This document shows positions 19,509 through 60,060 of a DNA stretch of 64,000 nt, piece by piece. The stretch's first letter is position 1, and each line of letters begins with the position of its first letter. The stretch is from Arachis hypogaea (taxonomy: Eukaryota > Streptophyta > Magnoliopsida > Fabales > Fabaceae), in assembly GCF_003086295.3 (NCBI RefSeq), contig NC_092043.1:51240598-51304597 (forward strand). The letters run 5' to 3'. Position numbers and translations under genes: made by a program. The notes below the pieces were generated by a model. That model saw only the letters and a list, made by a program, of their open reading frames with translations. It was not told the DNA's origin and made no database searches.

Positions 19509-19511
<3 letters not shown>

Positions 19512-19563: not shown

Positions 19564-19567
<4 letters not shown>

Positions 19568-25355: not shown

Positions 25356-25365
25356 AGCCTTTATA

Positions 25366-34136: not shown

Positions 34137-34200
<64 letters not shown>

Positions 34201-34568: not shown

Positions 34569-34683
34569 AATTAAGATATTTTAAATTTGCATTAAAATAA
34601 TAATATTATAAACAAAAGTGAGCAACTTTTAATGGAGATAATGATACACAGAGAAAAAAAGGAACATAGAGGAAAGGATTACC

Positions 34684-34955
34684 TGAAATTGAAGATGGCA
34701 CCAACGGTTGCTATTTCACTGCTTCTCAATATGAGTTCTCTTCAAACTGGTACAAAGATTTCAACTTCAGAATTTCAAAAAATTAGCATTCAAATTAAGG
34801 AGTTTCAATTCTTCAGCAGAGAGAAAATATAAAGTGGGAAAGAAGAGAACCTTTGCTTTGGCTTGCGGTTGCTGGTGTTATTATTGGTGTCTTCATGATT
34901 ATTATTAGTCTTCCATCTCACAGGAACATATTTGAACACCTAAAAAGACTGATTG
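34684..34955 (-). pseudogene. Unrecognised split gene fragment (copy 1)
   Basis: The minus strand shows an open stretch FKYVPVRWKTNNNHED followed by an Asn-rich run and NRKPKQR, ending at a GTTCTC donor-like site (about 34852). Further on is a second open stretch ELILRSSEIATVGAIFNFR with a GTAATCC donor (about 34682). The same two blocks occur at 50597-50860, with substitutions but still open. I do not recognise the parent gene. Confidence 0.4.
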
Positions 34956-36334
34956 TAATATCTAAGCACCCTGGTTTGTGTTTACTCATTTTCCCTAGCT
35001 AGTGACCCCACATCAAAGAATTATATGGTTCTCTATTCTAAAAAATGATACTATAAAGATGATCATTAATCACCCTCATAAATTGACTTGCAGCTTTGTA
35101 GTTACAACTTACACCAAATATCATAATGTCCTCCTGTTTACCGTGAGTTTGATTGCAAAGAAATTAATCAATCTCTATCCAACCCCTTTTTTTAGAATCA
35201 AATTTGGGTGAAAAAATTAATTGGGATTGCTGCAACAACATCTTCCATCAATCTGCTGGGTAAAACAATTCTTCAACCCTTTCAGCTACACAGTTCTCCA
35301 CCCGTGTTTGAATTTCACAGTGGAATAAATCAGTTGGCAATCTGGGGTTAAGCCGACTCAACCAATCAGAGCAAAGTATCATTAGTTTATCCCATCGTTT
35401 TGGGATTGCTAATGTTCTAACGTGCTAAACACAACGGATAAAAGGAGACCTAGGAATTTGGGAGAAAAACTACGGCTTCTTTTACTCTTCTCATGGACTG
35501 GTGGTAGGAAAAGTGTCTGTCATAAGGTGTTTTGTAATTAACAATGGACAGGTACGATAACATTGTAATTTCCATAGCAAGGTGTTGGATTCAGAGTTGT
35601 GTTAAGCACGAGAATGCAATATGTAAAATATTTAATGTAATTATAAGAATGACTAATAGGTAGAACTAACATTAATATAAACACATAATTTTTTAAAACC
35701 ATTAACTGCATAATGGCATAATGGCATTTGAAACACATTTATGAAACCATACTAACAACATATTGGAAAAAATGCATAACCTAATAATAAGGGTCTATCT
35801 TTAGCAAGGTTCTGAAAACCGGACCGGTTATCGGACCGTTTTGGTCACTGGTTCACTGGTTTACTGATTTAACCGGTTCAACTGTAGTCTAATCAAAAAA
35901 CCGTTTTATAATAAAATAATAAATAAATTATAAATAAAAGCCTAACACATACTTGTAGTCTAATACAAACTTAGTCATTCCACACATAAGAAAATCATCA
36001 CCATCTATAGCAAAATGCAATTCCAATCACTGAATACTATTCAATAGGTCAACACTATTCAAACAAAATGCAATTCTATTCATTTAATAAGTTAATACTG
36101 TACAATCTTACAACTGAGTAGCAAGACCTCTTCTACAATTAAGCTCAATCTAATCACTGAACCAAACCTTCTCAAAACATAACAATTATCAAAATTTATC
36201 ACAACTAAACTCATCTAACAAACAGCTCAAAACTCCAGGCCAACAACAAACACCAACTAACATAGACAACAAAGATCAAAGATATCATCAAATTGAAAAA
36301 TAAAATAAAGCAAAACAACGTTCATAAGAGTAAT

Positions 36335-36513
36335 GGATTTAAGGTGAATCGAAGAGCTTCATCTAATATGTCTTCTCCATGAATCCTAAGATGTGAGGCT
36401 TCATATAAGCTTAAGAGTCCCTCAACATTTGTGGCAAATTTTTCATTGAAATTAATAGCATAAAACAGCAAGTTAATACTATCATCCATAACGGAAACTA
36501 ATAAATCATTCAA
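36335..36513 (-). pseudogene. Terpene synthase (TPS) exon fragment inside E2
   Basis: The minus-strand frame contains [20 protein letters not shown] and DEALRFT. This is the conserved N-terminal alpha-domain block of plant sesquiterpene/monoterpene synthases (LLSLYEAS..[12 protein letters not shown]). Only about 35 residues match; the flanking residues do not. The catalytic DDxxD domain is absent. It is a captured exon piece inside a non-autonomous element, open in this copy and frameshifted in the paralogue. Confidence 0.75.
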
Positions 36514-36941
36514 AAAATTAAAAACAGCAGCAGCACCGCCAGAAAATTAATAGCAGCACAGAATTCAGCAACAAAAATTATCATTCAACAACAAACAGCA
36601 TTTGATTTGATTTCCATTTTAACATTCGGCAACAAACATAACAAAACAGTAACAAGTAATCCCTAATCACACTAAACCTGAAATCAATAAAGCTAACAGA
36701 GCATAATCCCTAATTACAAAACATCAACAAGTAATCCCTAATCCCTAATCCATTCTTAGCAGCAGCAAGAAATTTTCAACAAAAATTTTAGGAATTAAGA
36801 GCAGCAGCACAAAATCAATTATTTGATTTTCATTAATCCATTCACAATTTCACATTCAAAAATCAGCACACTAAGCATAGAAGGAAGAGAAGAACCGAAA
36901 AAGTGAAAGCAGTGCCACTAACCTTCGACGGAGACACGGAC

Positions 36942-37001
36942 GGCGAGCGACGAGACAACGGCGAGCGACGAGACAACGGCGAGCGACGAGACAACGGCGA
37001 G
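36942..37001. repeat. 18-bp tandem repeat, three units
   Basis: Three consecutive units of GCGACGAGACAACGGCGA in the GC-rich block of E2. The paralogue at about 54282-54320 has only two diverged units, so the repeat number changed after the duplication. Confidence 0.8.
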
Positions 37002-37693
37002 CTGCTCCAAGCCTCGAACAGAGAAGCCAGAGAGGACGGGGACAAGGGGAAGGAGGATGCCGAGCTACAAGAGAGGGCATGGGCAACAAAAGGGGACGCG
37101 GAGGCGCCGACAGCACGGACGGCGGTGGCACTGCAGCAGAACAGTTGCAGGGAGAACCTAGGGTTTTGGTTGGGTGATTTTGAACTTTGCTTGAGAGTTT
37201 AGAGGGATAGTTTCACGAACATGGGGGTGTGTTGGGGGAAGGGGGTGAGTGAGAGAGAAGCTGAACGTTGGTTTTTTTTCATATAAAAATAAAAACGGCA
37301 CGTTTAATAAGAACCGGCCGGTTACCGCTCCGGTCCAACCGGCCGGTTTCTAGCCGGTTCAATTATTTTTGAAAGAACGGTTATTTACAACGGTTCAGAC
37401 CTTTTTTTGCTGGTTCACGGTTAGACTGACCGGTCTGGTTCGATTTTAAAAACATTGGTCTTTAATAAACTTAAATCTTTTGAGCTTTTCTAATATGCAC
37501 AAAAGATAAATTATAAATATACCTCACATGGAGATTTAATAGGCTCTGTTTTTGGTAAGCTCAAATCTTTTGAGCTTATCCAATATGCACAAAATATAAA
37601 TTATAAGTATGCCTCGTATGGAGATTTAATAATAATTATTATATTTTTATATTTACTACAAATATTTTTAAATTCAACTAATGAAACCTAAAC

Positions 37694-38902
37694 CAATGTT
37701 CTGAAAACTGATTCGAAATTGGCCTGTCGAACCGGTTAAACCGAAAATCACTGTCAAATACGGTTCGAGCATAAGACAAAACTGCCAAATTTGAAAACTG
37801 GAGTTGGCCCGCCAAACATGCTGGGAACCAGTCTGTTGAACCGAACCGTGATCCGGCCGGTTTTTGAAATTTGGCCAAAACGCTGTGTTTTGCATGTTGA
37901 AGGGGCCAAAGAGAACCTTAGTCACCCACAAAGGCATAGACCCACTCACCCTTCTCCTCTCTCGAGCCTCCACTCTCACCTCTCATGTCTCTAGTCTCGA
38001 CTCTAACTTTTCACTGACGGGCAGAAGCAACATTCACTTCGAGCTTCCGGCACAACTTTCGTGCAGCCACCGCCACCATCGCAACATCCGTTGAGACAAC
38101 GTCAGCCAGCTCTGTTCGCGCAGCCACAAACCATCACGAAGTCTACCTTATAAAATCGCAGCCACCACCATCGCCACTTTTCGTCATGCAGTGTCTTCCC
38201 GCTAGCGCCAGCTCTGTTCGATCTTTTCACCCCTTCAGCAACTGTCTTGCCTCTTGCCCGTCATTGTTTTCGCCCGCTTTGCATTTTTCCAGGTTTTCAG
38301 CTTCTAACCCTAGGTATAAATTTTATTTTTTGTAATAACAATTGTTGAAGCATGATTAATTGTTGAAGTTGATTGCTAGTTATTATAATCTTTTTCAGAC
38401 ACTGTTTGGAATGTTCTTCACCTCAAAAGTGATTAATTGTTGGTTCTAAACCTTGTTGTTAATTGCTTGAAGCATGATTAATTGTTGAAGCATTGATTAA
38501 TTGTTGGTTTTAAAGCCTAAACTTTGCTGTTGATAATTGATTAGTTTTTGCGTGCTAAACCTTGTCGTTGAGGCATCGATTAATTATTATATAATTGATT
38601 AATTATTGAATAATTGTTGAATAATTTTGAATAATTTGGATGTTGTTTGTTGAAATTATTGGGCTGAAGTGGGTTGCTGTGATAATGAAATTGGATTGTA
38701 TTATTATTGGATTGTTGGTAATTTTCAAGTATGGATGATAGTATTAACTAAGAACTACCTAGGCATGTGTTTATTTATATTTTATTTATTATTTTATTAT
38801 AAAACAGTTTTTTCAGTTCAACCACAGTTGAACCGATTGAACATAAACCAGTAAATCAGTAACTAGAACGGTTCGATGACCAGTTCAGTTTTCAGAACCT
38901 TA
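37694..38902. mobile_element. CCGG-rich hAT-like element E3 (copy 1)
   Basis: Ends AATGTTCTGAAAACTGA and, inverted, AAGGTTCTGAAAACTGA (one mismatch in 17). A GC-rich exon-like block at 37930-38290 ends near CTAACCCTAGGTAT. Flanks in this copy are degraded; in copy 2 they are TCCTAAAC and CCCTAAAG. No transposase. Confidence 0.7.
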
Positions 38903-38957
38903 TCATAAGGTTACCACACTCCAAATTTAGACCCCCAAACTCACCACCACGATAAAC

Positions 38958-40708
38958 CATTGTTCTAAATATCGAACCAAATTGACCGGTTCAATTGAGT
39001 TAATCGAAAACCGATCATCAAGTCAGTCCAGTTAAACTTATAAAATGTATGGTAAAAAATCGGTCACAGAACTGGTCGAACCAGTAATTAACCGATAAAC
39101 TGGCAGAACAGGCCGGTTTTTTAAAGAGTTTTGGGTTCGGAAAAAACCCCTAAACTTCATCGTTTTGTTTATAGAAAAAAACACACCTAAACTCCTAACT
39201 GTGTGTTTGGATTTCAGTTTACAAATGTGAGTTTGTATAAAATTGATTTAACAAAATTGATTTTGATGAAAAGTAAGTTTAGGTTGATGTGATTTATGTT
39301 TGGCAATATTTGTATCAAAATTAATTATAGTAAAATAAATATTGTTTAGATTATACTACTTAAAATTACTTTTAAATAAAAAATTACTAAAAAAACAACA
39401 ATTTAAATTATTTTTTATATACATGCAATAACAGAATCTAACAAAAATAATATTAAAAATATTTATTATATAAATAAATAAATACAATAAAAAAATAGGA
39501 AAGAGAGTACTATAAATTTTATAATGTTAAACAAAAAATATTCTATAATTGGGAGAAGAACCCTAGGCCCCAACTCGCATCCACCGCAGCCCGTAGCCGC
39601 CGCGGCGATCACTCTCTCTCTCTTTTCGCCGAGCTCGCTGTCTCTGTGTTCGCCGGACGCCGGTGTCGCCGTCACTCGCCTTTCTTCTCGTCGGAAACGT
39701 TGCTTCTCTTTGCCGTCTTCACCTCTCGAAGATCTGCTTGGAGCTGTTGGCGTCGCAGTCTCCGTCGTCGTGGTCAAGCCAGTCTCCTTCGAGCCCTCTC
39801 TGTCTCCTCCCTCTGTCCGATCTGAATTTCCTTCCTCCCTCGCGGTCACTTCCCTTCCTCCCTCGTTGTCGGTAAGAACTGTTGCTTCAATTTATGATGT
39901 TGCTAATTTTCTGAAATAATGGTTGATGGGTGATTTGAATGATTTTGTTGAATTTTTTTTGCTGAGTTAATTTTGTGGATGGGATTCTGAGTTGGGTTTG
40001 ATGGTTGATTTTAACGGTGGTTGTTAATTTTGTTAATTGTGTGTTCTGAGTTGGGGGTTGTTGGTGATGTGATTCTGAATTTACTTTGGATGCTGTGTAT
40101 GGATTCTTTGTTTGGTTTTTCTGTTTTTGGATTTTCTGACTTTGGATGCTGAGTTTTCTGATTTTGAATGTTGAGTTTTTATTGTTGAATATTTGATTAG
40201 AAGTATTTGTTGAAATTTTTTGTGATTCTGAATTCTTTGTTGCTGGTGGTTTGAATTTTTATGTAAGTTTGTTATTCTGAATTCTTTTTTGTGATTATTG
40301 AATTTGATCTTCTTGGTTCTAGTCTACAAAAGCAAGAAGTGTATGTTGTTGCCAAGAATATCATTAGAGGTAAAGGAATTGCTCTGAGATGATGAACTTG
40401 GATAGGAGGATTATGCAGCACCAGCATCAGTTTATTGTTGAGCAAGAGCCAAGAAGTCATAAGAGTGAAAGAGAATTTGAGAATAAAAAAGAAAATTGGT
40501 TTAATTATGATATGCATGTCATTTTTACACTGAAATGTAAAATATTTATACCAAGTTACTGCTTTAGTTTCTATAATATTTATATGTATATTAACTTTTA
40601 ATAATTTTATTGTATATTGAAGTAAAATGGTTCAACTACGGTTCGACTCCGGTTGAACCATTAAACTATTGAACCAGTCACTTGACCGATTCGGTTCTCG
40701 CAACCTTG
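38958..40708. mobile_element. CCGG-rich hAT-like element E4 (copy 1)
   Basis: Left CATTGTTCTAAATATCGAAC; right, inverted, CAAGGTTGCGAGAACCGAAT. It is flanked by CGATAAAC (38950-38957) and CGGTAAAC (40709-40716). The paralogous left flank at 56239-56246 is CGGTAAAC, so the original 8-bp duplication was perfect. A GC-rich leader-like exon with a GGTAAGA donor lies at 39540-39870. No transposase frame is seen. Confidence 0.8.
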
Positions 40709-41766
40709 CGGTAAACAAACTCTAAACTCACCCTAATTCCTAATTCCTTTCCCTGTTACCTCACCATCACCTACTCCACACTATCTGTCTCAGCCGTCGC
40801 CGTCCAGACCATCAATCGTCGTCGCCTTCGCCGTCTAATCCATCTCCCGGGGTCGTTCCCAGGCTCCCCCTCCCCGTCCATCCTCCACTTCCAGACTAAC
40901 AATGGAGCCTTGGCCTCAGGTATGAATTTGCTTCATTGATTTTATTTTTTTTTTGTTCCTTTTATGTTTTTGTTGTATGAATCTGTTTGAATTCATTCAG
41001 TTATTTTTTTCCTACTTATTTTTTCTTTAGGGTTTTCATATTCCTTCATTTCATTGATTTCATTCAATTACTTTTTTGTTCTGTTTATTTGTTCTGATTT
41101 GGGAGTTGTATGCTATATTCTTGTCGGAGGGGCAAAGTGACATGAAATAGAGATATAGAGGAAGCCCGAACCTTCAATTTCACATAGCAATATGCCGTGT
41201 GCAACGCTAACATAGTTATTTATGATTTGAAAGTAGTTTTCTATAGCTACTTATTGTGGTGATCCATGACATAAGAATGAAGTGCTGTGCTACAAGCATC
41301 TTGGTGTAGCTAAGATTCATGCCAATTTGTTAATTTTACGTAGCAATTGCAATTCTCCATTATTGTTCTGTTGGTATCTAACATAGTGAGACATGAGGTT
41401 TCATGGACTTTACAAAAAATGCTATGAGAATTGTGTAGTTCATGTATTTTGTATTTTGATCCCGTAATATTTAGATTCCTCAACTTATTACGAAGAGAGT
41501 GGTGGCGAGACTGAGTCCTTAATGGTGGATATCGATTCTGATGCTATAAAATGTTTTAAATGTTATTTTTTATTTTTTATACTACTTATTTTACTTTTTT
41601 TATTCCACACCATATTTCTACCTTTGTCTTGTTAAATTAATTCCGCAGTAGTGAAGATTTTGACCATGCAGAAAATTCATTTGCCAGTGACAATTAATTA
41701 AAGGGTTTACTTGTTATAGCTTTTGGCTTCAACCATTCATACTGTGGGATATTGTAATGTTTTCCA
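40709..41766. other. Segment between E4 and the RING fragment
   Basis: A CT-rich leader-like stretch ends ATGGAGCCTTGGCCTCAG at a GTATGA donor (about 40903-40920), resembling the first exon of a captured gene. At about 41475-41552 an open stretch DSSTYYEESGGETESLMVDI lies behind a TTTAG acceptor. Neither was identified. The rest is AT-rich intron-like sequence. All of it is absent from copy 2. Confidence 0.35.
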
Positions 41767-41767
41767 A

Positions 41768-41878
41768 ATGAGCGAGACAGAATTGTGCTGCATCTGCTTT
41801 GAGCAAGTTTGCACAATTGAAGTCCAACATTGTGGCCACCAAATGTGTGCACAATGCATACTAGCATGGAAAGAATGA
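41768..41878 (+). pseudogene. XBAT/XB3-type RING finger fragment
   Basis: A short plus-strand frame reads MSETELCCICFEQ, CTIEVQHCGHQMCAQC and ILAWKE then a stop. Cys and His spacing (C-x2-C, then C-x-H-x2-C-x2-C) and the wording match the RING domain of plant XBAT31/XB3-like ankyrin E3 ubiquitin ligases, but the final Cys pair is missing because of the stop at 41876. It is a host-gene fragment carried by composite copy 1 only. Confidence 0.7.
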
Positions 41879-42569
41879 TATACCGTATAATGTAATATAT
41901 GGGAAGTAAGCAAAGTTACTTGAGAATGAAGAAGCATCACCTGCATCGATGATTTTGGGCATGATCAAATCAAATGGATATTGTGTATAATTAAGTATTC
42001 AAGTGAAGTGAGAAATTCTTTTTTTCGGCAAGTAGCCAGAAAGTGTAAGATCACATGAAAATGTATTGTATTTGCTTCTTATTTGTTTCTGTGTATCAAA
42101 ATATTCAATAATATCACGTGGTAATTGTTTTCTTCAGCATATTTAAATGCTTTATTAGTGTCCTTGAATACAATTTGAGAGGAAAGCAGAAAAGGGGTTG
42201 GGTGTGATGTGATGAATAATAACTGTCAATATTGAATGATAAGATCAATAATAATTTTGGGTTGAATGCCAAGTGATACTGTTCCTATCAGACATCAATA
42301 ATCTCAAAAGTGTCACTGTAAAGGATAATGCCAAGTGACACTGTTCCCATCAGACATTAATATTTACGTTCTTGTTTTGATTTTTTTTTAAATAAAATAA
42401 AAATAAAAACTTTACTGAACCATTACATGAAATGAACATGTCTGACTCAGATTTCTTTCCCTAAAGCCATGAATAAAGAGCTAGAAAATTCAAAATATGA
42501 ATTGAGTTCAAAAGCATGTACATCAACTAAATAATCTGAAAACTTTTATTCAAATAGTATAAATTGCAG

Positions 42570-42876
42570 TAAGCAATTAACTGTCTCAACTGAACTCTAT
42601 TACAGAAATTGAATAAATCGTCAAGACTAGGGCCAGTAAATCCATCACAAGCACATTGTACTCTTCTTCTACGTCATACCATTTCACATTTGGGATCCCA
42701 GCTGTCAACAAACCAAAAATAGTTTAAGCTGAGTGATTAACATGAAGTCAATGAAAAGCAAAGAGCTCCAAAGAAAAAACAAAATTTCAGTATGATAGAA
42801 GATTATTTTCTCCTTGCAGTATTTTATACAGCTTTGATTCATAGAGCAATTGAGGGTGCTTGATTTTGACATTTTC
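42570..42876 (-). pseudogene. Casein kinase I fragment, two exons (copy 1)
   Basis: Minus-strand exon 42876-42813 encodes ENVKIKHPQLLYESKLYKIL and Q. After an intron with a GACAG acceptor, exon 42701-about 42570 encodes GIPNVKWYDVEEEYNVLVMD and LL. These are consecutive segments of the plant CK1 N-lobe up to the hinge. One base is missing in the following LGPSL block, shifting the frame. Catalytic HRD and DFG segments are absent. Repeated at 57905-58210. Confidence 0.85.
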
Positions 42877-43261
42877 CTGGATAAGAAAGAAAACCAAGAC
42901 AATAGCAAGCTCGGTCAGACATACATGACTTGTCCTTCAATAATTTAATTTTGCAACTAAAATATGCAGAAATCTTAAATTGCCATGCACTACAGCACCC
43001 CATAGCTCTAATATATCCCTCTTAAAAAAGATTAGTTCAGCATATTCATTCTTTGGAAAGTCACTAAAACATTACAATGCTCCTAATTTCATCATAATCA
43101 AGAACATTAATAAGCAGTCAAGCTGTTTGAAGGAAAATTACACATTCTTACATGCATGCATGGGTGCATATCCGTCAATAATTAAATATCACATAACAAA
43201 CAAAAATTAAGCAGTCGTAAATGCCGAAGAAGTGAGTGCAACCGAACTCAATTGTGCGCTA

Positions 43262-44400
43262 AATAGAAAATACCAAGAAATTATATATACCGCCCATATC
43301 ATGATGCATACGGAATTGATTTTGCTTCTTTTTGAAACAAATTAAAACAGGAACATTTCTCACAAGTTGTGAATTGGATCAGCTTTTCAATTAAAGAACC
43401 AATGAGAGTGAATGAGATATATAAGGGAGCGGTTTTTCGTTCTCCAAATGTTAGTTTCACTACATCATCCATTTGCTGCGCTGCCCTGTCTCATGTTATC
43501 CTTTTTCATTTGATTTTAAATGTTTATAAGTAGAGAATAGGAATTCGTTTGAATTAGGATAAGTTTCTACGCATACTTATCTTATTGCTTTATTTAATTA
43601 TTAATATTTAGGCGGTTTCTCCAGCCAATAAATAAAAAAAACTGATAAATATTAAATACAAAGGTTCATATTATATTACCATATGTAATGTTTTTTTAGG
43701 TGTCTAAATGAAAGAAAAGAAAAAGAAAAAGAAAAACAGAGCATATCTAAGCAAATGAAATGATGGACTTCATTTTAAAGTTGGAGTCATTCTTTACTTT
43801 CTTCTAGATTCATGATAGCATTTTTTGTCATAAGATTAGCAGCTTGATTGCCGTTCTTTGGATCATGAATAAGATTATCATTTTTCTTTCTATGCATTAT
43901 GAAGGAAATGTCCACACAATTAACCTCACACAAAAACATTCCAAAAGTCACACTTTTAAACTAGGATTAAACCCGTATAAATAGCATGAAGCTCAGCATG
44001 AAAAACATTAACATTTTCTGACTTTTTAGAGCAACCTTTTACTTACAAACCATCAGAGTCGCGAATAAATAGGCCAAAACCAGTGGTATCCTTAGGAGGG
44101 CTCAGACCAGCATAATAAAGTAGAGGGATGAAGGAGATAAAGACAGGTGCATAATAAAAATGACATGCAGCACTCTTGTTTAACTCCTAATCATGCTAAT
44201 CACTCTTCCCACATTCCACCCATCATCAAGATTAAATTATCATTATTTCTATCTTTCCAAATCCACCATATGACCCAATAGAACAAAGAATAACTCCTAC
44301 AATTATGATCTCTTCTAAGCCTAACCTTTAAGTTTGGACAAATTTATTTTTTTTTGGTCAAAAGTTTGGACAAATTGAAAATGAACCCAAAGTAATCCTG
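43262..44400 (-). pseudogene. LINE 3' fragment with RNase H remnant (copy B)
   Basis: Matches copies A (25832-26965) and C (58590-59785). The minus-strand RNase H words HAELHAIYTGL lie near 43990-44020. A short block containing GATCAAGAAGATATTAATTT is deleted relative to A and C. Confidence 0.65.
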
Positions 44401-44833
44401 GACAGAAAGGGTTTATTTTAGTATTCTGGACAGAAAGATAGATTTAGTTTTGAGCCCATGTTTTCTTTATGAGGGAGCAAACCTACTAGTAACTTTTAGC
44501 CCAAACCGGCTGCAAAGGGATAGGTCAGGCTATAGGCAATTCATATATGAACAAATTATAGAGATTAATTCCCCGAGTAAAAACCACAGTGCAACGAGAA
44601 TCCTAATATTTGGTAAGAAAACAAAACAATTAAAAGTTTTATAGTGATCTCCACGACACCATCTGAACTTAAAAAAAGAATAGAGAAGATATATACACAC
44701 ACAAAACATATATTTATAAAAACAAATTAAGAGCTGCATATCCAACTTGTAATTATTTTAATATAACTGCAAAACAAATTTATTTATAAAAATATTAATA
44801 AAGTATATCTCTAATTAAGAGCTGTATATCCAA

Positions 44834-44835
<2 letters not shown>

Positions 44836-44873
<38 letters not shown>

Positions 44874-46603
44874 TTTTCTGGTATTTTCCTCCAAAGGATT
44901 CATTCGTGCAGCAATTTCTAATGGCAGCTCCAAACCTTGCAATTGAATTAGATATTTCAGAGCATTGTCCATTGCCTGGCTCTTTATGTTTTCTGATGCT
45001 AGTTCATCTTTCAATACCTTCCTTTTCAATTTCTCGGACACCATCTCTGTAGTTCAAGCAGCACCCGGCGGATGCAAATTCAAATCGAAGAGGTGAATAG
45101 GATCTCTCTCGCCTGGCGGATGCAAATTCAGATCCAAGAGATGAATAGGAGTCAGTCCGAAACTAACGTTAGGTTCTTTCCCAAGAGTTTGGACAAGCGA
45201 ATCATTTTGAGATTCATCATCACATTGCTCAATTACCACAATTTTTTCCTACCGACATAAATAAGCAAACATAAGCCATTACGGGATATAGCATAATCGA
45301 ATAGACTTTCAACACAATTTATAATTAAAATTTAAAACCAGCAGGAAACAACATAAAAAATCTATACATGACTTACAACAATAGTCCGAGCTTCTTCGTG
45401 GATATGAGTGTCATCGCTTTGTTTGAGTTGCATCTGTGACAATATATTTTAATGCCATTAACATACTCTACTCAAATAAAAAAATGGAGATAAAGAGATA
45501 GTTCAAAAAGTGAATTCAAATTTAATTTACCCCTTCTTTTTGTCTTGCCATGGATAATTGTTTTGCTCGAGTCATGGCGTTTTTTCTACATTTCTCCTAT
45601 TATGGCATAAAAAATAAGAGTGATTAGACATCATTTTTGTCCAACTCAAGTGCAACATAAATAGAATTATTTGGATAAGAATTCAAAATAGAAAACCTGT
45701 GTGTCTGGTTTATTGCGATATGCAAGGAACAATTTCCAATGCTCTTTATCAATTCTTGACGGACATCTCTCAATGTTTTGTTCAAGCGTATTTGTTGAAT
45801 TGTAATACTTATGATACAACTTTCTCCTTGTATTCCGCCAACAGCTTCCTATTCTTTTTAAAATTGTCCTCTTAATATTTCCTCTACTATCTTCATCAAA
45901 TTGAAAATTTTCCTATAGTGATAAATCCAAATTGTTAGTAATTTTTAAATGAAATTGATTTAATTCAACAATACTATAAATTTTTACCTTAACCAAATCG
46001 TTATAAACCTTGTCTTTGGTAATAATCTTTCTCCAACTTTCCTCATAAATAGGAAATTTATCATAATCAGCCCCTAGCAACCCAAGAAAGCTACTCAATA
46101 TACCGGCTTCATCTCCAATTGGTTGGAGTTCTCTGTTAAATTTGAGAACGATTTTTCTACCATTAAGCTGCTTCATAGCTTTCCTTGCACTTAAACGAGC
46201 TTGTTTGATTGTGCCATCGGAATCTATACAAAATATAAACTTATATTTGTAAGTGTAACCATTGTGCCAATAGACGAGAAAAATAAAAAAAATAATCTAA
46301 ATCACTTTGAATATAAAAGATTTAAGATTTGTTACCTATAATATTAACATTCCAAAAATTTGTTTTCTTGGGTCCTTTGCGCAAAAGTCCTTTGCACATA
46401 CGAGTTTCAGGTACAACAAAGTTGTCTGGCTCCGAGTTTTGAATACCATTTGTGGAGAAATGTGGAGCAAGCATTAGTTCGCTATGGGGTGGATAGAATG
46501 GACTAAAAGATGTAGCTGCGGGAACGCCACCACTGGAAAAGGGAATAAGATAGTCATCGTGATGGGATGATGAAGCCGCAGGAGCTTTCATTTGAGGCTG
46601 CAT
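44836..46603 (-). CDS. Ptta/En-Spm-type plant transposase (Transposase_24), multi-exon, frameshifted last exon
   Basis: Minus-strand exons 46603-46336, 46223-45988, 45912-45697, 45596-45531, 45433-45377 and 45248-about 44836 have canonical GT-AG borders. The first five join in one frame. Features: a Pro/Ser-rich N-terminus; the RLSARKAMKQLNGRKIVLKF block; ESWRKI; then CWRNTRRKLYHKYY, DKEHWKLFLAYRNKP and SMARQKEG with HIHEEAR, the signature order of PF03004 transposases. The HTGGSK motif expected before SMARQKEG is missing. The last exon has a duplicated (P/D)PIHL.DLNLHPPG unit, then a frameshift before a coiled-coil-like tail (EKLKRKVLKDELASENIK, IQLQGLELPLEIAARMNP). It could be a transposon gene that recently lost its end, or a domesticated gene. 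Confidence 0.7.
44837..44877. repeat. (AT)n plus poly-T tract
   Basis: Alternating AT of about 29 bases followed by about 12 T. It adjoins the 3' end of the transposase frame. Confidence 0.9.
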
Positions 46604-49310: not shown

Positions 49311-50472
49311 TATGCTTCTGTGAGAAAGGAGATAACATCTAATAAAAAAAAATTGAAATTACAATAACCTGACTAAAATTCTATTATAATTTTTTGTACT
49401 TAACTAAATACTTAATTTATCTAATAAATAAATAATTATTTAATTGGCGGAAGAGAACCAAGGTCTTAAGTTATAGGATTTTTTAAAAAATAAGTATTTT
49501 AACATACGAATAAAAAAATTCAAAGCTAATTTTTCTCGTAGAGAAAACTCTACTTAATTAAATACTAATGAAGAAAATCCTACAAAGTTAATGCATTGCT
49601 AGTCATTAAAGTCTCTAGTCCATAAACATGAAACCAAAACATTACCACAATCGCACACGTGTACACACACAACAAAGGACACAAAGAACTTTTGGACTTC
49701 GTTGGCAATCCATTCAATCAATTTTGGCTTTTATTTTTAATTTTGAAATACAAAATTATAGGGCACAATTTGTTATTAAACCACACAGTAAAAAATTGCA
49801 CCAAGCAATTTTTTCTTCCCTGACCAGGACAGAAATCACAGAGATATTTTTTCTTCCCCTCATATATGTGAATTCTCCAATCTGCTGCTATACAAAAACT
49901 AATTTACGTAATTTAATTGGATTTTTTAAAATTTTAACTTTTAATTTAATAAAAAATACTTATATCAATAAAAAATTAATTAAAAGACAAACTTGACTTA
50001 CATTAATATTAATATATTTTGTAAAACAAATTTAGACACTTGAGTTTTTGAAAAACTTCATTAACATATACATGATCTCTTTAGGCATCATTTTGAATAT
50101 TAACCATTTTTCTTTTTTCTATTGTTTGAGAACTTTGAATGGATTGTTACAAATTAATCCATCTATAAACTTGGACTGATATTACACTGTGTAGAATCAA
50201 ACAGATGTCCAAAGAAGTACAAAAAAGTGAACAGGAAAAAAAAAGGAGAGAAATAAATCAGTCCTAATGTTAGATATATATAATTAAAAGGCTAATTAAT
50301 ACCTTGTCTTATAGTCTTTAAGATTTCTTTACAAAATCACATATAAAATCATATTCTTTCTCTATATATAAATTTATTTCTTCAAAAATGCTAAATAGTA
50401 TCCTATCATCATGCATCATCTCAAAAGCAAAAAAGATAGTCTAAAATAAATGATATATGTATTTTAATTTTA
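49311..50472. other. Spacer between the ARR fragment and composite copy 2
   Basis: AT-rich DNA with the 122-residue plus-strand frame 49628-49996, which has no domain or composition typical of a gene. It may include the upstream region of the ARR fragment. Nothing else recognised. Confidence 0.4.
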
Positions 50473-50596
50473 GGATATTTTAAATTTGTATTAAAATAAT
50501 AATATTATAAACAAAAGTGAACAACTTCCAAGGTGATAATGATAAACAGGGGAAAAAAAAGGAACATAGAGCATAGAGGAATGGCTTACCTGACCT

Positions 50597-50860
50597 GAAA
50601 TTGAAGATGGCACCAACAGTTACTATTTCACTGCTTCTCAATATGAGTTCTCTTTAAACAGGTACAAAGATTTCAACTTCAGAATTTCAGAAAATTGGCA
50701 TTCAAATTAAAGAGTTTTAATTCTTTAGCAAAGAGAAAACATAAAGTGGGAAAGAAGAGAACCTTCGCTTTTGGCTTGCGGTTGGTGTTGTTATTATTGT
50801 CGTCTTCATGATTATTATTAGTCTTCCATCTCATAGGAACATATTTGAACACCTAAAAAG
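50597..50860 (-). pseudogene. Unrecognised split gene fragment (copy 2)
   Basis: Paralogue of 34684-34955: FKYVPMRWKTNNNHEDDNNN then RKPKAK, and an ELILRSSEIVTVGAIFNF-like block. It is included because both copies keep the frame. No function is proposed. Confidence 0.4.
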
Positions 50861-51590
50861 ACTAATTGTAATTTCTAAGCACCTTGGTTTGTGTTTTCTC
50901 ATTTTCCCTTGTTAGTGCCATCGAAGAATTATATGGTTCTCTATCCTAAAAAATGAGACTATAAAGATGGTCATTAATCACCCTCATAAATTGACTTGCA
51001 GCTTTGTAGTTACAACTTACACCAAATATCATAATGTCCTCCTATTTGCTGTGAGTTTGATTGCAAAGAAATTAATCAATCTCGTCCGTGAGAGATACAA
51101 ACTTTAGCATTACCGTCTAAGACATTTCAAAATTACAGAATCAAATAAACCTAGCAAACAAAAAACACTGAAATTGAAGAAAATGTTAAAAATAAAAACA
51201 ATCAAACATAATTCCCAGTAGCAGAAGAAAATTGAAGAAAAATTTTGAATTAACATATCACCTAATACATAGAAAAGGTTATACACAATCAAACAATTTC
51301 ATCATCTTGATTTCAACTACTAATAAAAAAAATAGGCAATCAAACAAAATATATCCATACTGTGACTTTCCAAGTTCTCTGACTTCATCAATTGTTGCAA
51401 CAACATCATCATCTGCATATTATTTTTCCCCACTTACTCACTGTTACTTTTTTCTTGCAAACAAAAGTATTTTCTCACAGCTAGAAAGCCTTCATCTGCG
51501 CCCCCATGTTCCTGTAGCTCTTCAAAAACCCGAACAGCACCTTGTTGAATGCCGCCAGCTCCTATGCCGTTATCACAGGTATTCCATCGT

Positions 51591-52030
51591 CTTTGGGCGG
51601 CGCCCTCATCCGCTGCAGAATCTCTGCCGAGAAATCTCCGGCACCCTGTAGAAGACCCCTTCCACTCACTCAATGCCGCCCACGCCCTTGTTCAGCCTCC
51701 TTGCTATGCCTTCCACGTGCCCATACATTGAGTAAAATACGATGAAGATCCTCAGCCTCCCCGCGCCGGTAGCAGCGGCGGCCACCCTATACGACGACGC
51801 TTGGGCATTTTTGGTAGTGTCATCTGTGGAAGTGTTGTCACGGGGATCGATGGGGTCCGAAACATTACGGCAGCAGCAGAAGAGGGAGAATCGCCGGCGA
51901 CATGTAGTGATCGAGTTGAGATTTGAATCTGAGAGTGAAGCAAAATTGGATATGTGAGAGTGAGAGAGAGAGAAATGAAAAATTTGGAATTGGTAGAGTA
52001 AGATTCGAAATTTGAACTTACCAGAATATT
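51591..52030. repeat. 440-bp tandem duplication, unit 1 (FQR-like 5' part)
   Basis: Begins CTTTGGGCGGCGCCCTCATC and ends CCAGAATATT. It is nearly identical to 52031-52490. A GGA-to-TGA difference after the GGIE codons makes this unit nonsense where unit 2 is open. Confidence 0.93.
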
Positions 52031-52389
52031 CTTTGGGCGGCGCCCTCATCCGCTGCAGAATCTCTGCCGAGAAATCTCCGGCACCCTGTAGAAGACCCCT
52101 TCCACTCCCTCAATGCCGCCCACGCCCTTGTTCAGCCTCCTTGCTATGCCTTCCACGTGCCCATACATTGAGTAAAATACGATGAAGATCCTCAGCCTCC
52201 CCGCGCCGGTAGCAGCGGCGGCCACCCTATACGATGACGCTTGGGCATTTTTGGTAGTGTCGTCTGTGGAGGTGTTGTCACGGGCATCGATGGGGTCCGA
52301 AACATTCCAGCAGCAGCAGAAAAGGGAGAATCGCCGGCGACATGTAGTGATCGAGTTGAGATTTGAATCTGAGAGGGGAGCAAAATTGG

Positions 52390-52436
<47 letters not shown>

Positions 52437-52490
52437 GAAAAATTTGGAATTGGTAGAGTAAGATTCGAAATTTGAACTTACCAGAATATT
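52031..52490. repeat. 460-bp tandem duplication, unit 2
   Basis: Same borders as unit 1 plus an expanded GA tract. The few base differences imply a recent duplication. Confidence 0.93.
52394..52433. repeat. (GA)n microsatellite, expanded in unit 2
   Basis: About 20 GA units; the corresponding place in unit 1 (about 51956-51974) has GAGAGTGAGAGAGAGAGA. This accounts for most of the 20-base size difference between the units. Confidence 0.93.
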
Positions 52491-53142
52491 CTGCAAGTTG
52501 CCGCTCAATCAGATATCCAACCCCTTTTTTTAGAATCAAATTTGGGTGGAAAAATTAATTGGGATTGCTGCAGCAACATCTTCCTTCAATCTGTTGGGTA
52601 AAACAATTCTTCAACCCTTTCATCTTCACAGTTCTCCACCCGTGTTTGAATTTCACAGTGGAGTAAATCAGTTGCCAATATGGGGTTAAGCCGACTCAAC
52701 CAATCAGAGCAAAGTATCATTAGTTAATCCCATCGTTTTGGGATTGCTGATGTTCTAACGGGCTAAACACAACGGATAAAAGGAGACCTCTAAATTTGGG
52801 AGGAAAACTGCGGCTTCTTTTGCTCGTCTCATGGACTGGTGGTAGGAAAAGTGTATGTCATAAGGTGTTTTGTAATTAATAATGGAAAGGGAAGATAACA
52901 TTGTAATTTCCATAGCAAGGTGTTGAATTCAGAGTTGTGTTAAGCAAGAGAATGCAATATGTAAAATACTTAATGTAATTATAAGAATGACTAATAGGTA
53001 GAACTAACATTAATATAAACATATAATTTTTTAAAACCATTAATTGCATAATGGCATAATGGCATTTGAAACACATTAATGAAACCATACAAACAACATA
53101 TCGGAAAAAATGCATAACCTAATAATAAGGGTCTATCTTTAG

Positions 53143-54761
53143 CAAGGTTCTGAAAACTAGACCAGTTATCGAACTGTTTTGGTCACTGGTTCATTGGTTT
53201 ACTGATTCAACCGGTTCAACCGTAGTCTAATCGAAAAACCGTTTTATAATAAAATAATAAATAAATTATAAATAAAAGCCTAACACATACTTGTAGTCTA
53301 ATACAAACTTAGTCATTCCACACATAAGAAAATCATCACCATCTATAGCAAAATGCTGCAATTCCAATCACTGAATACTATTCAATAGGTCAACACTATT
53401 CAAACAAAATGCAACTCTAATCATTTAATAAGTTAATACTGTACAATCTTACAACTGAGTAGCAAGACCTCTTCTACAATTAAGCTCAACCTAATCACTG
53501 AACCAAACCTTCTCAAAACATAACAATTATCAAAATTTATCACAACTAAATTCATCTAACAAACAGCTCAAAACTCCAGGCCAACAACAAACACCAACTA
53601 ACATAGGCAACAAAGATCAAAGATATCATCAAATTGAAAAATAAAATAAAACAAAATAACGTTCATAAGAGTAATGGATTTAAGGTGAATCGAAGAGCTT
53701 CATCTAATATGTCTTCTCCATGAATCCTAAGATGTGAGGCTTCATATAAGCTTAAGAGTCATCAACATTTGTGGCAAATTTTTCATTGAAACTAATAGCA
53801 TAAAACAGCAAGTTAATACTATCATTCATAACGGAAACTAATAAATCATTCACAAAATTAAAAACAGCAGCAGCACCGCCAGAAAATTTATAGCAGCACT
53901 GCATTCAGCAACAAAATTTATCATTCAACAACAAACAGCATTTGATTTGATTTCAATTTTAGCATTCAGCAACAAACATAACAAAACAGTAACAAGTAAT
54001 CCCTATTCACAATAAACCTGAAATCAATAAAGCTAACAGAGCATAATCCCTAATTACAAAACAGCAACAAGTAATCCCTAATCCCTAATCCATTCTTAGC
54101 AGCAGCAAGAAAATTTCAACAAAAATTTCAGGAATTAAGAGCAGCAGCACAAAATCAATTATTTGATTTTCATTAATCCATTCACAATTTCACATTCAAA
54201 AATCAGCATACGAAGCATAGAAGGAAGAGAAGAACCGAAGAAGTAAAAGCAGTGTCACTAACCGTCGACGGAGACACGGACGGCGAGTGGCGAGACAACG
54301 GCGAGTGGCGACACGGCGGCGAGCTGTTCCAAGCCTCGAACAGAGAAGCCAGGGAGGACGGGGACAAGGGGAAGGAGGACGCCGAGCTACAAGAGAGGGC
54401 CTGGGCAACAAAAAGGGACGCGGAGGCGCTGACAGCACGGACGGCGGCGGCACTGCAGCAGAACCGTTGCAAGGAGAACCTAGGGTTTTGGTTGGGTGAT
54501 TTTCAACTTTGCTTGAGAGTTTAGAAGGATAGTTTGACGAACCGGGGTGTGTGTTGGGGGAAGGGGGGTGAGCGAGAGAGAAGCTGAACGTTGGTTTTAT
54601 TTCGTTTTAAATAAAAATCAAAACGGCACGTTTAATAAGAACCGGCCGGTTTCTAGCCTGTTCAACGGTTTTTGAAAGAACGGTTATTAACAGCGGATCG
54701 GACCTTTTTTTCGCTTGTTTCCAGTTGGACTGGTCGGTCTGGTTCGGTTTTAAGAACATTG
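53143..54761. mobile_element. CCGG-rich hAT-like element E2 (copy 2)
   Basis: Paralogue of 35805-37457 with the same ends and the same flanks (ATCTTTAG / GTCTTTAA), so it was inserted before the segment was duplicated. The GC-rich block is at 54240-54480. Confidence 0.7.
53680..53796 (-). pseudogene. Terpene synthase fragment inside E2 (copy 2), frameshifted
   Basis: The same TPS block as at 36342-36456. At about 53760 the sequence GAGTCATCAAC replaces GAGTCCCTCAAC, one base shorter, breaking the frame in the middle of the LLSLYEAS segment. Confidence 0.75.
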
Positions 54762-54996
54762 GTCTTTAATAAGCTTAAATCTTTTGAGCTTTTCTAATAT
54801 GCACAAAATATAAATTATAAATATACCTCTTATAGAGATTTAATAGGCTCTGTCTTTGGTAAGCTAAACTCTTTCGAGCTTATCCAATATGCACAAAATA
54901 TAAATTATAAGTATGCCTCGAATGGAGATTTAATAATAATTATTATATTTTTATATTTACCACATATTCTTAAATTCAACTAATGAAATCCTAAAC

Positions 54997-56192
54997 CAAT
55001 GTTCTGAAAACCGATTTGAACTGGTTTGTCGAACCGGTTGAACCGGTAACCACCGTCAAATACGGTTCGGACAGAAGACAAAACCTCCAAATTTGAAAAT
55101 CGAAGTTGGCTTGCCGAACTTGCCGAGAACCAGTTAGTCAAACCGAACTACGACTCGGCCGGTTTTTGAAATTTGGCCAAAATGCTGCGTTTCGCATGTT
55201 GAAAGGGCCAAAGGGAACCCTAGTCACCCATAGAGGCATAGACCCACTCACCCCTCTCCTCTCTCGAGCCTCCATTCTCACCTCTCATGTCTCCGGTCTC
55301 CACTCTTATTTTCCACTAACGGGCAGAAGCAACATTCACTTCGAGCTTCCGTCGCAACTTCCGTGCAGCCACCACCGCCATCGCAACATCCGTTGAGACA
55401 ACGTCAGCCAGCTCTGTTCATGCAGCCACAAATCGTCGTGAAGTCTGCCTTTGAAAATCGCAACCACCGCCATCGCCACTTTTCGTTGCGCAGTGTCTTC
55501 CTGCCGGCGCCAGCTCTGTTCGACCCTTCCACCACTTCAACCATTGTCTTGCCTCTTACCAGCCATTGTCCCCGCCCGGTTTGTATTTTTTCAGGTTTTC
55601 AGATTCTAAACCTAGGTATAAATTTTATTTGTTGAAATAATAATTGTTGATGCATGATTAATTGTTGAAGTTGATTGCTAGTTATTAGAATCTTTTTCAG
55701 ACACTTTTTGGAATGTTCTTCACCTCAAAAGTGATTAATTGTTTGTTCTAAACCTTGTTGTTGATTGCTTGAAGCATGATTAATTGTTGAAGCATTGATT
55801 AATTGTTGGTTCTAAACTTTGCTGTTGATAATTGATTAGTTTTTGCGTGCTAAACCTTGTCGTTGAGGCATTGATTAATTATTATATAATTGAATAATTG
55901 TTGAATAATTTTGGATAATTTGGATGTTGTTTGTTGAGATTATTGGATTGAAGTGGGTCGCTGTGATATTGAAATTGGATTGTATTATTATTGGTTTGTT
56001 GGTAATTTTTAGGTATGGATGATAATATAAATCAAGAACTACTTAGGTATGTGTTTATTTATATTTTATTTATTCTTTTATTATAAAACAGTTTCTTCAG
56101 TTCAACCATAGTTGAACCGATTGAACTTATAAACCAGTAAATCAGTAACTGAAATGGTTCGATGACCGGTTCGATTTTCATAAATAACCTTG
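54997..56192. mobile_element. CCGG-rich hAT-like element E3 (copy 2)
   Basis: Paralogue of 37694-38902. Flanks TCCTAAAC (54989-54996) and CCCTAAAG (56193-56200) agree at 6 of 8 positions, supporting a hAT-type duplication that has been lost in copy 1. Confidence 0.7.
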
Positions 56193-56246
56193 CCCTAAAG
56201 TTATCACACTCCAAATTCAGCCTCCAAACTCACCACCACGGTAAAC

Positions 56247-57278
56247 TGTTGTTCTAAAAATCGTAACGGACCGACCAATTCAACTGAATTAATAAAAAAC
56301 CAATCATTAAGCCGGTGTGGTAAGGCCTATAAACCGTATGACAAAAAACCTGTCACAGAATCGATTGAACTACTAGTTAACTGATGAATCGACAGAACCG
56401 GCCGGTTTTTTAAAGAGTTTTCGGTTCCGAAAAAACCCTCCAAAACTACATCGTTTTGTCTATAGAGAAAAAAAAAAAAAAAAAAACCCTAAAATCCTAA
56501 ATCCTCTCTTCTCTGAACCAAACTTTGAAATTGGGAGAAGAACCCTAGCCCCCAATCTGGCACCCACCGCAGCCCGCAGCCGCCGCAGCCCGTAGCTGCC
56601 GCAGCGATCACTCTCTCTCTCTTCGCCGAGCTCGCTGTCTCTGTGTTCGCCGGAGCCGGTGTCGCCTTCCTCTGTCGTCGCCGTCACTCGCCTTCCTCCT
56701 CGTTGGAAACGTTGCTTCACTTTGCCGTCTTCGCCTCTCGAAGATCTGCTTGGAGCTGTTGGCGTCGCAGTCTCCATTGTCATCGTCGTCAAGCCAGTCT
56801 CCTTCGAGCCCTCTCTGTCTCCTCCCTCTGTCCGATCTGAATTTCCTTCCTCCCTCGCCATCACTTTCCTTCCTCCTTCGTTGTCGGTAAGAGCTGTTGC
56901 TTCAATTTATGATGTTGCTAATTTTCTGAAATAATGGTTGATGGGTGATTTGAATGATTTTGTTGAATTTTGTTTGCTGAGTTAATTTTGTGGATGGGAT
57001 TCTGAGTTGGGTTTGATGGTTGATTTTAACGGTGGTTGTTAATTTTGTTAATTGTGTGTTCTGAGTTGGGGGTTGTTGGTGATATGATTCTGAATTTACT
57101 TTGGATGCTGAGTATGGATTCTTTGTTTGGTTTTTCTGTTTTTGAATTTTATGTAAGTTTGTTACTCTGAATTCTTTTTTGTGATTATTGAATTTGATCT
57201 TCTTGGTTCTAGTCTCCAAAAACAAGAAGTGTACGTTGTTGGCAAGAATGTCACTAGAGGTAAAGGAATTGCTCTGAG
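56247..57278. mobile_element. CCGG-rich hAT-like element E4 (copy 2), right end deleted
   Basis: The left flank CGGTAAAC (56239-56246) is kept. The element is cut at about 57278, where the sequence jumps to that found at 41953 in copy 1. The GC-rich leader-like exon (56530-56890) is well conserved with 39540-39870. Confidence 0.75.
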
Positions 57279-57904
57279 ATGATGATTTTGGGCATGATCA
57301 AATCAAATGGATATTGTGTATAATTAAGTATTCAAGTGAAGTGAGAAATTATTTTTTTCGGCAAGTAGCCAGAAAGTGTAAGATCATATGAAAATGTATT
57401 GTATTTGCTTCTTATTTGTTTCTGTGTATCAAAATATTCAATAATATCACGTGGTAATTGTTTTCTTCAGCATATTTAAATGCTTTATTAGTGTCCTTGA
57501 ATACAATTTGAGAGGAAAGCAGAAAAGGGGTTGGGTGTGATGTGATGAATAATAACTGTCAATATTGAATGATAAGATCAATAATAATTTTGGGTTGAAT
57601 GCCAAGTGATACTGTTCCTATCAGACATCAATAATCTCAAAAGTGTCACTGTAAAGGATAATGCCAAGTGACACTGTTCCCATCAGACATTAATATTTAC
57701 GTTCTTGTTTTGATTTTTTTTTTAAATAAAATAAAAATAAAAACTTTACTGAACCATTACATGAAATGAACATGTCTGACTCAGATTTCTTTCCCTAAAG
57801 CCATGAATAAAGAGCTAGAAAATTCAAAATATGAATTGAGTTCAAAAGCATGTACATCAACTAAATAATCTGAAAACTTTTATTCAAATAGTATAAATTG
57901 CAGT

Positions 57905-58210
57905 AAGCAATTAACTGTCTCAACTGAACTCTATTACAGAAATTGAATAAATCGTCAAGACTAGGGCCAGTAAATCCATCACAAGCACATTGTACTCTTC
58001 TTCTACGTCATACCATTTCACATTTGGGATCCCAGCTGTCAACAAACCAAAAATAGTTTAAGCTGAGTGATTAACATGAAGTCAATGAAAAGCAAAGAGC
58101 TCCAAAGAAAAAACAAAATTTCAGTATGATAGAAGATTATTTTCTCCTTGCAGTATTTTATACAGCTTTGATTCATAGAGCAATTGAGGGTGCTTGATTT
58201 TGACATTTTC
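57905..58210 (-). pseudogene. Casein kinase I fragment, two exons (copy 2)
   Basis: Paralogue of the 42.6-kb fragment, nearly identical, with the same exon borders (58210-58147 and 58035-about 57905) and the same missing base after VLVMDLL. The frameshift therefore predates the duplication. Confidence 0.85.
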
Positions 58211-58589
58211 CTGGATAAGAAAGAAAACCAAGACAATAGGAAGCTCGGTCAGACACACATGACTTATCCTTCAATAATTTAATTTTGCAACTAAAATATG
58301 CAGAAATCTTAAATTGCCATGCACTACAGCACCCCATAGCTCTAATATATCACTCTTAAAAAAAATTCTGCATATTCATTCTTTGGAAAGTCACTAAAAC
58401 ATTACAATTCTCCTAATTTCATCATAATCAAGAACATTAATAAGCAGTCAAGCTGTTTGAAGGAAAATTACTCATTCTTACATACATACATGGGTGCATA
58501 TCCGTCAATAATTAAATATCACATAACAAACAAAAATTAAGCAGTCGTAAATGCCGAAGAAGTGAGTGCACCGAACTCAATTGTGCGCT

Positions 58590-60060
58590 AAATAGAAAAT
58601 ACCAAGAAATTATATATACCGCCCATATCATGACGCATACGGAATTGATTTTGCTTCTTTTTGAAACAAATTAAAACAGGAACATTTCTCACAAGTTGTG
58701 AATTGGATCAGCTTTTCAATTAAAGAACCAATGAGAGTGAATGAGATATATAAGGGAGCGGTTTTTCGTTCTCCAAATGTTAGTTTCACTACATCATCCA
58801 TTTGCTGCGCTGCCCTGTCTCATGTTATCCTTTTTCATTTGATTTTAAATGTTTACAAGAAGAGAATAGGAATTCGTTTGAATTAGGATAAGTTTCTACG
58901 CATACTTAATCTTATTGCTTTATTTAATTATTAATATTTAGGCGGTTTCTCCAGCCAATAAATAAAAAAAACTCTGATAAATATTAAATACAAAGGTTCA
59001 TATTATATTACCATATGTAATGTTTGTTTAGGTGTCTAAATGAAAGAAAAGCAAAAGAAAAAAAAAGGAAAAAAGAAAAGGAAAAACAGAGCATATCTAA
59101 GCAAATGAAATGATGGACTTCATTTTAAGGTTGGAGTCATTCTTTACTTTCTTCTAGATTCATGATAGCATTTTTGGTCATAAGATTAGCAGCTTGATTG
59201 CCGCTCTTTGGATCAAGAAGATATTAATTTTTCAATTCCAACTTATTAGTTTCTTGATTTTTTTCACTAGATTCCTCTCGTGAATAAGATTATCATTTTT
59301 CTTTCTATGCATTATGAAGGAAACGTCCACACAATTAACCTCACACAAAAACATTCCAAAAGTCACAGTTTTAAACTAGGATTAAACCCGTATAAATAGC
59401 ATGAAGCTCAGCATGAAAAACACTAACATTTTCTGACTTTTTAGAGCAACCTTTTACTTACAAACCATCAGAGTCGCGAATAAAGAGGCCAAAACCAGTG
59501 GTGTCCTTAGGAGGGCTCAGACCAGCATAGTAAAGTAGAGGGATGAAGGAGATAAAGACAGGTGCATAATAAAAATGACATGCAGCTCTCTTGTTGAACT
59601 CCTAATCATGCTAATCACTCTTCCCACATTCCACCCATCATCAAGATTAAATGATCATTATTTCTATCTTTCCAAATCCACCATATGACCCAATAGAACA
59701 AAGAGTAACTCCTGCAATTATGATCTCTTCTAAGCCAAACCTTTAAGTTTGGACAAATTGAAAATGAACCCAAACTAATCCAAATCTCCTTGGCTTTAGG
59801 ACAATTTCTAAGGCAATGTAAGATAGATTCAGATTATTGACGGCATCCATGACAAACATTCGAGACTGCAAGGCCATGGTGGAGTTTGAAATCTACAGCA
59901 AAAATCCCGTTATGAAGATAAAGCAAAATCAGGAACTTATGTTTTTCTCGCATATACATCTTCCAAATCTAAAGCTAATAATCAAGCTCATCCCACCAAA
60001 TCTCCATTTGAAAATGTCAAAATGCAACTGTAACCACTGCTAACTGTGCAGAGATCGCAA
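58590..60060 (-). pseudogene. LINE 3' fragment, zinc-knuckle to RNase H (copy C)
   Basis: The minus strand from about 60020 reads words of a LINE zf-RVT region (HHGLAVSNVCHGC, SILHCLRNCPKAKEIWISLG), then the RNase H piece around 59530-59360 (GFGLFIRDSDGL, HAELHAIYTGL). It is the longest of the three copies; A and B are cut upstream of the RNase H by Ptta-type element sequence. Several stops interrupt it. Positions 60061-60286 are AT-rich spacer. Confidence 0.75.

Follow-up and report, generated by a model that had tools for sequence, protein, structure and literature searches.

Two copies of a segment of about 10 kb, in which fragments of unrelated host genes are mixed with transposon sequence, lie in the stretch of Arachis hypogaea DNA analysed here (64,000 nucleotides, hereafter the window; positions 51,240,598-51,304,597 of contig C8). 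Is this segment a single mobile element that gathered all of its gene pieces, or was it built from pieces with separate histories? We consider it likely that the segment was put together from independently assembled pieces and then copied within an old tandem array, and that it is not one new mobile element. The genome searched comprises 2.56 Gb in 440 contigs, the duplicated locus lies about 225-290 kb from the end of C8 (51,529,986 bases in all), and the array comparison covered 40 kb downstream and 30 kb upstream of the window on C8 and 50 kb of contig C7. A limited literature search returned no paper on this locus.

Self-comparison of the window yielded a direct, collinear pair at 34571-44398 (copy 2) and 50470-59781 (copy 3), which agrees with an original prediction of two ~10-kb copies alike in order and orientation and refines their limits. 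The number of copies has to be enlarged by a partial third one at 25832-26960 (copy 1) and by further array units outside the window. Identity between copies 2 and 3 ranges from 78.0 to 100 % in 200-bp windows, far above chance, and the window sequence contains no N. All four host genes named in that prediction are supported (terpene synthase, casein kinase I [CK1], an XBAT-like RING protein, and an FQR-like quinone reductase), with the correction that only copy 2 has XBAT and only copy 3 has FQR. Copy 3 has one private stretch of 1430 bp, which holds FQR, and copy 2 has three, of 309 bp, 125 bp, and 1557 bp, the last of which holds XBAT (Table 1). A 65-bp stretch is present in copy 3, absent from copy 2, and by eye also present in copy 1.

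The setting of both copies is a tandem array with the unit order R, pre-L, L, FQR fragment, and downstream stretch D, a unit present on C7 and several times over on C8; R, pre-L, L, and FQR recur in this order downstream on C8, at 68627-75609 on the window scale (unit 4), and part of R is present four times on C7. D, which follows the position of 35790, is common to C7 and unit 4 (84 % over ~400 bp); when units 2 and 3 were compared with these two, D did not turn up beyond 35790. In its place, units 2 and 3 have a foreign block made of three hAT elements (A, B, and C), an XBAT-CK1 chimera, and a piece (X) bearing part of a long interspersed nuclear element (LINE). Copies 2 and 3 have L and the block in common, and the partial third copy of X adjoins R1. 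The array repeats extend both ways, since a C8 stretch at about -9.7 to -6.2 kb, upstream of the window, matches the downstream stretch at 76.7-80.2 kb (88.6 % over 3.6 kb).

A genome search with 34570-36000 gave at least 43 matches. Among those listed, 9 fall on C8 or C7 (the window copies, another C8 unit, and C7), and at least 23, on many contigs, match the initial 130-200 bases of element A. At least 11 more match ~34570-34913, a repeat dispersed on other contigs at 78-85 %. Within R1, a K+ transporter (K_trans) fragment was recognised at 27224-27592 (PF02705, E 6.9e-12, with only the first 73 of 123 open reading frame [ORF] residues matched), and related stretches lie at about -9.0 kb and at 77.5 kb. 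Across 4.8 kb of R repeats from C7, Pfam returned nothing at E 0.1, and Rfam returned nothing at gathering score.

C7, unit 3, and unit 4 have the FQR fragment in one common position, with 91-93 % identity among the three, and of the four L copies examined only copy 2 is without it. A late insertion of FQR into copy 3 was rejected because C7 and unit 4 have the fragment at the same site; judged by this shared position, FQR belongs to the older array unit shared with C7. A protein search with the FQR ORF gave 17 matches, the three best being A. hypogaea records. The top match (1.3e-92) has the same internal duplication, a full-frame A. hypogaea protein matches at 5.6e-21, and a Mucuna FQR1-like 2 protein at 7.7e-9; domain and structure matches are weak (Pfam flavodoxin, E 0.028; best PDB match, 0.12). 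The internal duplication is a 440-bp tandem at 51590-52492 that was not seen in C7 or unit 4. Both of its halves are found in an A. hypogaea protein record (P0001), an example of how such gene scraps enter annotation.

A, B, and C form the left part of the block. All three are non-autonomous hAT elements from a single family, lying inside 5 kb with 236 and 55 bp between neighbours. Target site duplications (TSDs) of hAT elements are 8 nt long (PMC8903248). The flanks of A (ATCTTTAG and GTCTTTAA) are alike at 6 of 8 positions, as in a decayed TSD; those of B agree at 4 positions in copy 2 and at 6 in copy 3 (TCCTAAAC and CCCTAAAG), and those of C (CGATAAAC and CGGTAAAC) at 7 of 8 in copy 2, the left flank of C in copy 3 being CGGTAAAC. 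The ends of A, B, C, and the relatives fetched for comparison are of the type CAAGG/CAATG/CATTG, and the right end of B reads CCTTA in copy 2 and CCTTG in copy 3. The terpene-synthase fragment inside A has delta-cadinene synthase as its best PDB match (2.4e-9). A six-frame scan of 34501-44402 at E 0.5 detected no transposase domain.

Five of the at least 23 places matching the left end of A were taken for comparison. Four of them (on C1, C3, C16, and C20) carry the terpene-synthase fragment at 94.9-96.2 % nucleotide identity over 132-156 bases, and the one on C14 is without it. Both ends were found in three relatives (C1, ~1.44 kb; C16, 1.75 kb; C20, 1.71 kb), each with an exact 8-bp TSD (CTTTTACT, GTTTCTAC, and GTGAATAT); the C16 relative has a second terminus-like stretch ~90 bp beyond its end. 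These exact 8 bp led us to drop the reading that A, B, and C have target duplications of 6 bp. A and its relatives are a Pack-hAT family that has spread a terpene-synthase exon, which resolves one vehicle, with the same exon on at least four other chromosomes. Compared with the Pack-hAT elements of PMC8903248, the likenesses are terminal inverted repeat (TIR) ends, 8-bp TSDs in three relatives, a transposase-free A, a host exon inside, and same-family neighbours. Passages of that source treat rice and maize, with Arachis absent from its main text, and the termini found here differ in being long, with two ends unlike each other.

Other traces of hAT-related sequence lie in the window. A further terminus of the A/B/C family is at 32548-32775 (CATGGTTCTGAAAATCGGACCGG; its other end was not found), a transposase piece with a hAT-like RNase-H fold is at 7045-8127 (PF14372, E 4.7e-26), and a hAT C-terminal dimerisation domain, in two frames, is at 30326-30570 between R1 and L (PF05699, E 2.3e-5 and 2.6e-4). 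A protein search with 36837-37199 gave two Arachis matches, and one with 39469-39891 (minus strand) gave no match.

The right part of the block has another history. The XBAT piece was recognised by its XB3/XBAT31 RING (PF24921, E 1.7e-10; 41.2 bits, under the curated cut-off of 50) and matches C3 (2.89 Mb) and C13 (4.67 Mb), the C3 match being an open last exon with RING. Relative to that gene, 394 bases are missing from the window, with a 4-base repeat, AGCA, at the join. A removed intron was rejected as the cause, since in the C3 gene these bases are coding up to the stop codon and then run on into 3' sequence. The CK1 fragment comprises two exons, which match casein kinase I-like PDB entries at E 1.3e-5 and 1.3e-6; its likeness to C9 and C19 includes the introns and stops at ~43086-43094, and the exon there reads on intact. 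XBAT-CK1 chimeras without the same 394 bases were also found on C10 and C13 (92.6 Mb). Because the CK1 part on C10 and C13 continues beyond 43086, the window chimera is cut at that position. Beyond 43094, the C10 and C13 chimeras are alike for ~0.8 kb, with no end structure recognised there. Sequence beside the C13 chimera that matches the interior of the Mutator-like element (MULE) present in the window was considered as a vehicle and set aside, as no MULE ends were found there; we take it to resemble the end of a long terminal repeat (LTR) retrotransposon. The 1557-bp absence from copy 3 is probably a deletion. The 5-bp microhomology and the C10 and C13 relatives point to this, and a separate insertion of XBAT into copy 2 was rejected on the same grounds.

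Could a single ~10-kb composite mobile element (a Helitron, a Pack-MULE, or a macrotransposon) have captured all of the gene pieces and inserted twice? The like order and orientation of both copies, the many unrelated gene pieces, and the retained CK1 introns are what such an element would leave, and a weak inverted match near both border pairs (described below) also counts in its favour. The borders speak against it. Homology to C7 crosses the left border, so that 34571 is read as no element end, copy 3 having lost sequence there. On the right, the LINE continues past the border of copy 3 and breaks off at ~26960 in copy 1 and ~44398 in copy 2, where array sequence R comes next; in unit 4, the sequence natively upstream of R differs from X. 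We read the right border as a breakpoint inside a LINE, whose RNase H match (RVT_3, E 0.00031, 21.1 bits) falls just under the cut-off of 21.6. When the borders were tested directly, neither pair had an exact flank repeat of at least 4 bases lying 3 bases or less away. Between the 100-mers taken at the borders, the best inverted match is one of 12-13 AT-rich bases with one mismatch. It lies within the range of chance, having been equalled or beaten by 11 of 200 random pairs for copy 2 and 7 of 200 for copy 3. Nothing like a Helitron 3' end turned up in a crude scan of 34500-44700 and 50400-60300, and neither Helitron features (5' TC, 3' CTRR with hairpin, A/T target; simple scan, borders judged by eye) nor the border TIRs and TSD of a Pack-MULE or other TIR element were found for the whole segment. 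The TIRs of the MULE present in the window (19823-25355) were not found in either copy. One element spanning 34571-44398 was rejected. As in a tandem segmental duplication, the copies are direct and their borders lie inside otherwise continuous sequence. FQR, the terpene-synthase fragment, and XBAT-CK1 are found apart elsewhere, and among the matches listed no place off C8 has L or FQR beside CK1; the pieces belong, among these matches, to separate repeats that occur together only here, except that XBAT and CK1 travel together. We therefore regard the single element as very unlikely. What survives of the proposed Helitron or Pack-type capture is the terpene-synthase piece, as a Pack-hAT, and the retention of introns in CK1, without one enclosing vehicle. 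That the duplication is an assembly artefact is hardly credible, given that the copies differ by 0-22 % along their length, that each has private stretches, and that further units differ again.

At a smaller scale, A, B, and C could form a hAT macrotransposon in the making, with the outer ends of neighbouring elements used together to move the DNA between them. Such joint use is a proposed capture route for Pack-TYPE elements (PMC8903248, section 9). Three same-family elements within 5 kb and a 134-bp inverted repeat (84 %) shared by the left end of A and the right end of B are consistent with this, but the flanks match for every element individually, which makes separate arrivals probable, and A and B are oppositely oriented, whereas 12 of 15 maize hAT pairs are same-oriented in that source (PMC8903248). 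No A-B or A-B-C unit was seen, no completed genome-wide search having been aimed at one, and we find a macrotransposon improbable here. A single 3.1-kb TIR element at 35806-38901 was likewise set aside, as A and B each have their own flank match and B resembles A reversed. For the XBAT-CK1 chimera, located on C8, C10, and C13 with one common XBAT deletion and no recognisable TIR or Helitron end, movement by an undescribed vehicle, or transposon-free spread by repeated template copying in break repair, seems to us quite improbable.

If the segment is a composite multiplied within the array, hAT transposition would have placed A, B, and C, break repair would have linked the block with array sequence at 35790, 43086, and 44398, and unequal exchange among array units, or conversion of one by another, would have multiplied L and the block. 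Over 35176-35681, units 2 and 3 are 94.7 % identical to each other and 88.5-91.9 % identical to unit 4 and C7. The X copies are 97.4-98.1 % identical, and L is 94-95 % identical in the two stretches compared. With the badly aligned 39489-39573 left out, transversions between copies 2 and 3 number 128 in 5256 sites left of the 1557-bp gap vs 15 in 2392 sites to its right (CK1 and X; Fisher p 4.8e-9); the right part was homogenised or copied later. Between 35176 and 39179, transitions affect 17.5 % of CG/CHG sites vs 3.2 % elsewhere. An excess of this kind is methylation-type decay, as in methylated repeats. The block behaves as decaying repeat DNA, and a function is not evident.

Several observations fit the composite reading less well. 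Over 34918-35175, the identity of copy 3 is 94.8 % with C7 and 94.1 % with copy 2, and this stretch thus does not mark copies 2 and 3 out as the youngest pair. R1 and R2 are only 73.4 % identical over 259 sites, which does not fit a plain one-step 17-kb tandem duplication and weakens that simple form; the array duplication would then need an internally repeated R, as in the four R copies on C7, or conversion. R being repeated on C7, R1 may have a positional partner other than R2. The TSDs of A and B are decayed, and a flank likeness of 6 of 8 was reached by 173 of 20000 random pairs. The ancestral state of the joins at 35790, 43086, and 44398 was not found, and the co-occurrence of the pieces only here rests on matches listed, whose numbers are lower bounds.

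Genome comparison traces the pieces to four sources: the array unit, the hAT family, the XBAT-CK1 chimera, and the LINE-bearing piece. They are of known kinds, and the locus is a well-resolved example of their combination. Tandem segmental duplication or unequal exchange in plant arrays resembles it in the direct orientation, the several units, the breakpoints in unrelated sequence, and the uneven identity, and differs in that units 2 and 3 hold a foreign transposon block and the R paralogues predate this block by far. The joins and microhomology deletions of double-strand-break repair are matched by GATGA at the copy 3 deletion and AGCA at the XBAT gap, although the ancestral states of the block joins are missing here. 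Multi-gene capture by Helitrons or Pack-MULEs is alike in its several unrelated gene pieces with introns kept, and unlike in that the borders here are without end structures and the pieces have separate histories. An apparent single multi-gene capture element can thus be built from pieces differing in age and origin, and these layered pieces offer a test case for the multiplication of gene scraps by array exchange rather than by transposition.

Table 1. Features of the duplicated segment and its surroundings (window positions)
Feature	Position	Strand	Remarks
Pre-L stretch	33861-34570	+	C7 homologue spans 33861-34792, 87 %
L of array unit 2	34571-35790	+	also in unit 3 (50470-51083 and 52514-53128), unit 4, and C7
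Element A, non-autonomous hAT (CAAGG...CATTG)	35805-37457	+	carries terpene-synthase fragment; copy 3 homologue from 53143
Terpene synthase N-terminal domain fragment inside A	36331-36453	-	PF01397, E 1.8e-10
Element B, same hAT family	37694-38902	-	orientation opposite to A; terminus and flank comparison
Element C, same hAT family	38958-40708	-	right end lost from copy 3
Copy-2-only 309-bp stretch within C	39180-39488		part repeated inverted at 25667-25769
1557-bp stretch absent from copy 3 (end of C and XBAT RING)	40391-41947		5-bp microhomology GATGA
XBAT31-like last exon and 3' sequence	41709-42328	+	without 394 bases relative to C3 gene
Casein kinase I fragment, introns kept	42601-43094	-	92-93 % to intact-looking exons on C9 and C19
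X, 3' part of LINE	43087-44398	-	RVT_3 at 43921-44091; copies at 58417-59781 and 10976-11139 + 25832-26960
R2, array sequence after block	44399-47560	+	R1 at 26964-29384; parts on C7 and C8 downstream
Copy 3 of L and block	50470-59781	+	self-comparison
FQR1-like fragment	51084-52513	-	position shared with C7 and unit 4; missing in copy 2
LINE zf-RVT domain beyond copy 3 right border	59780-59974	-	PF13966, E 3.4e-8

Copy 1 is split by a 14.7-kb cluster of a LINE, a MULE, and others (11140-25831), which parts 10976-11139 from the sequence starting at 25832. The counterparts of these two stretches are adjacent in copies 2 and 3, and no clean TSD was seen around the cluster. The MULE in it (19823-25355) has TIRs of ~62 bp (92 %) and a 10-bp TSD, AGTCTTTATA and AGCCTTTATA, alike at 9 of 10 positions; its MULE, Transposase_mut, and SWIM domains are in broken pieces, and the stretch inside it at ~23.0-25.0 kb is presumably a piece of an LTR retrotransposon. 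In copy 2, at 44330-44376, 15 bases (AAGTTTGGACAAATT) occur twice around a T-rich insert of 17 bases; in copy 3, they are single.

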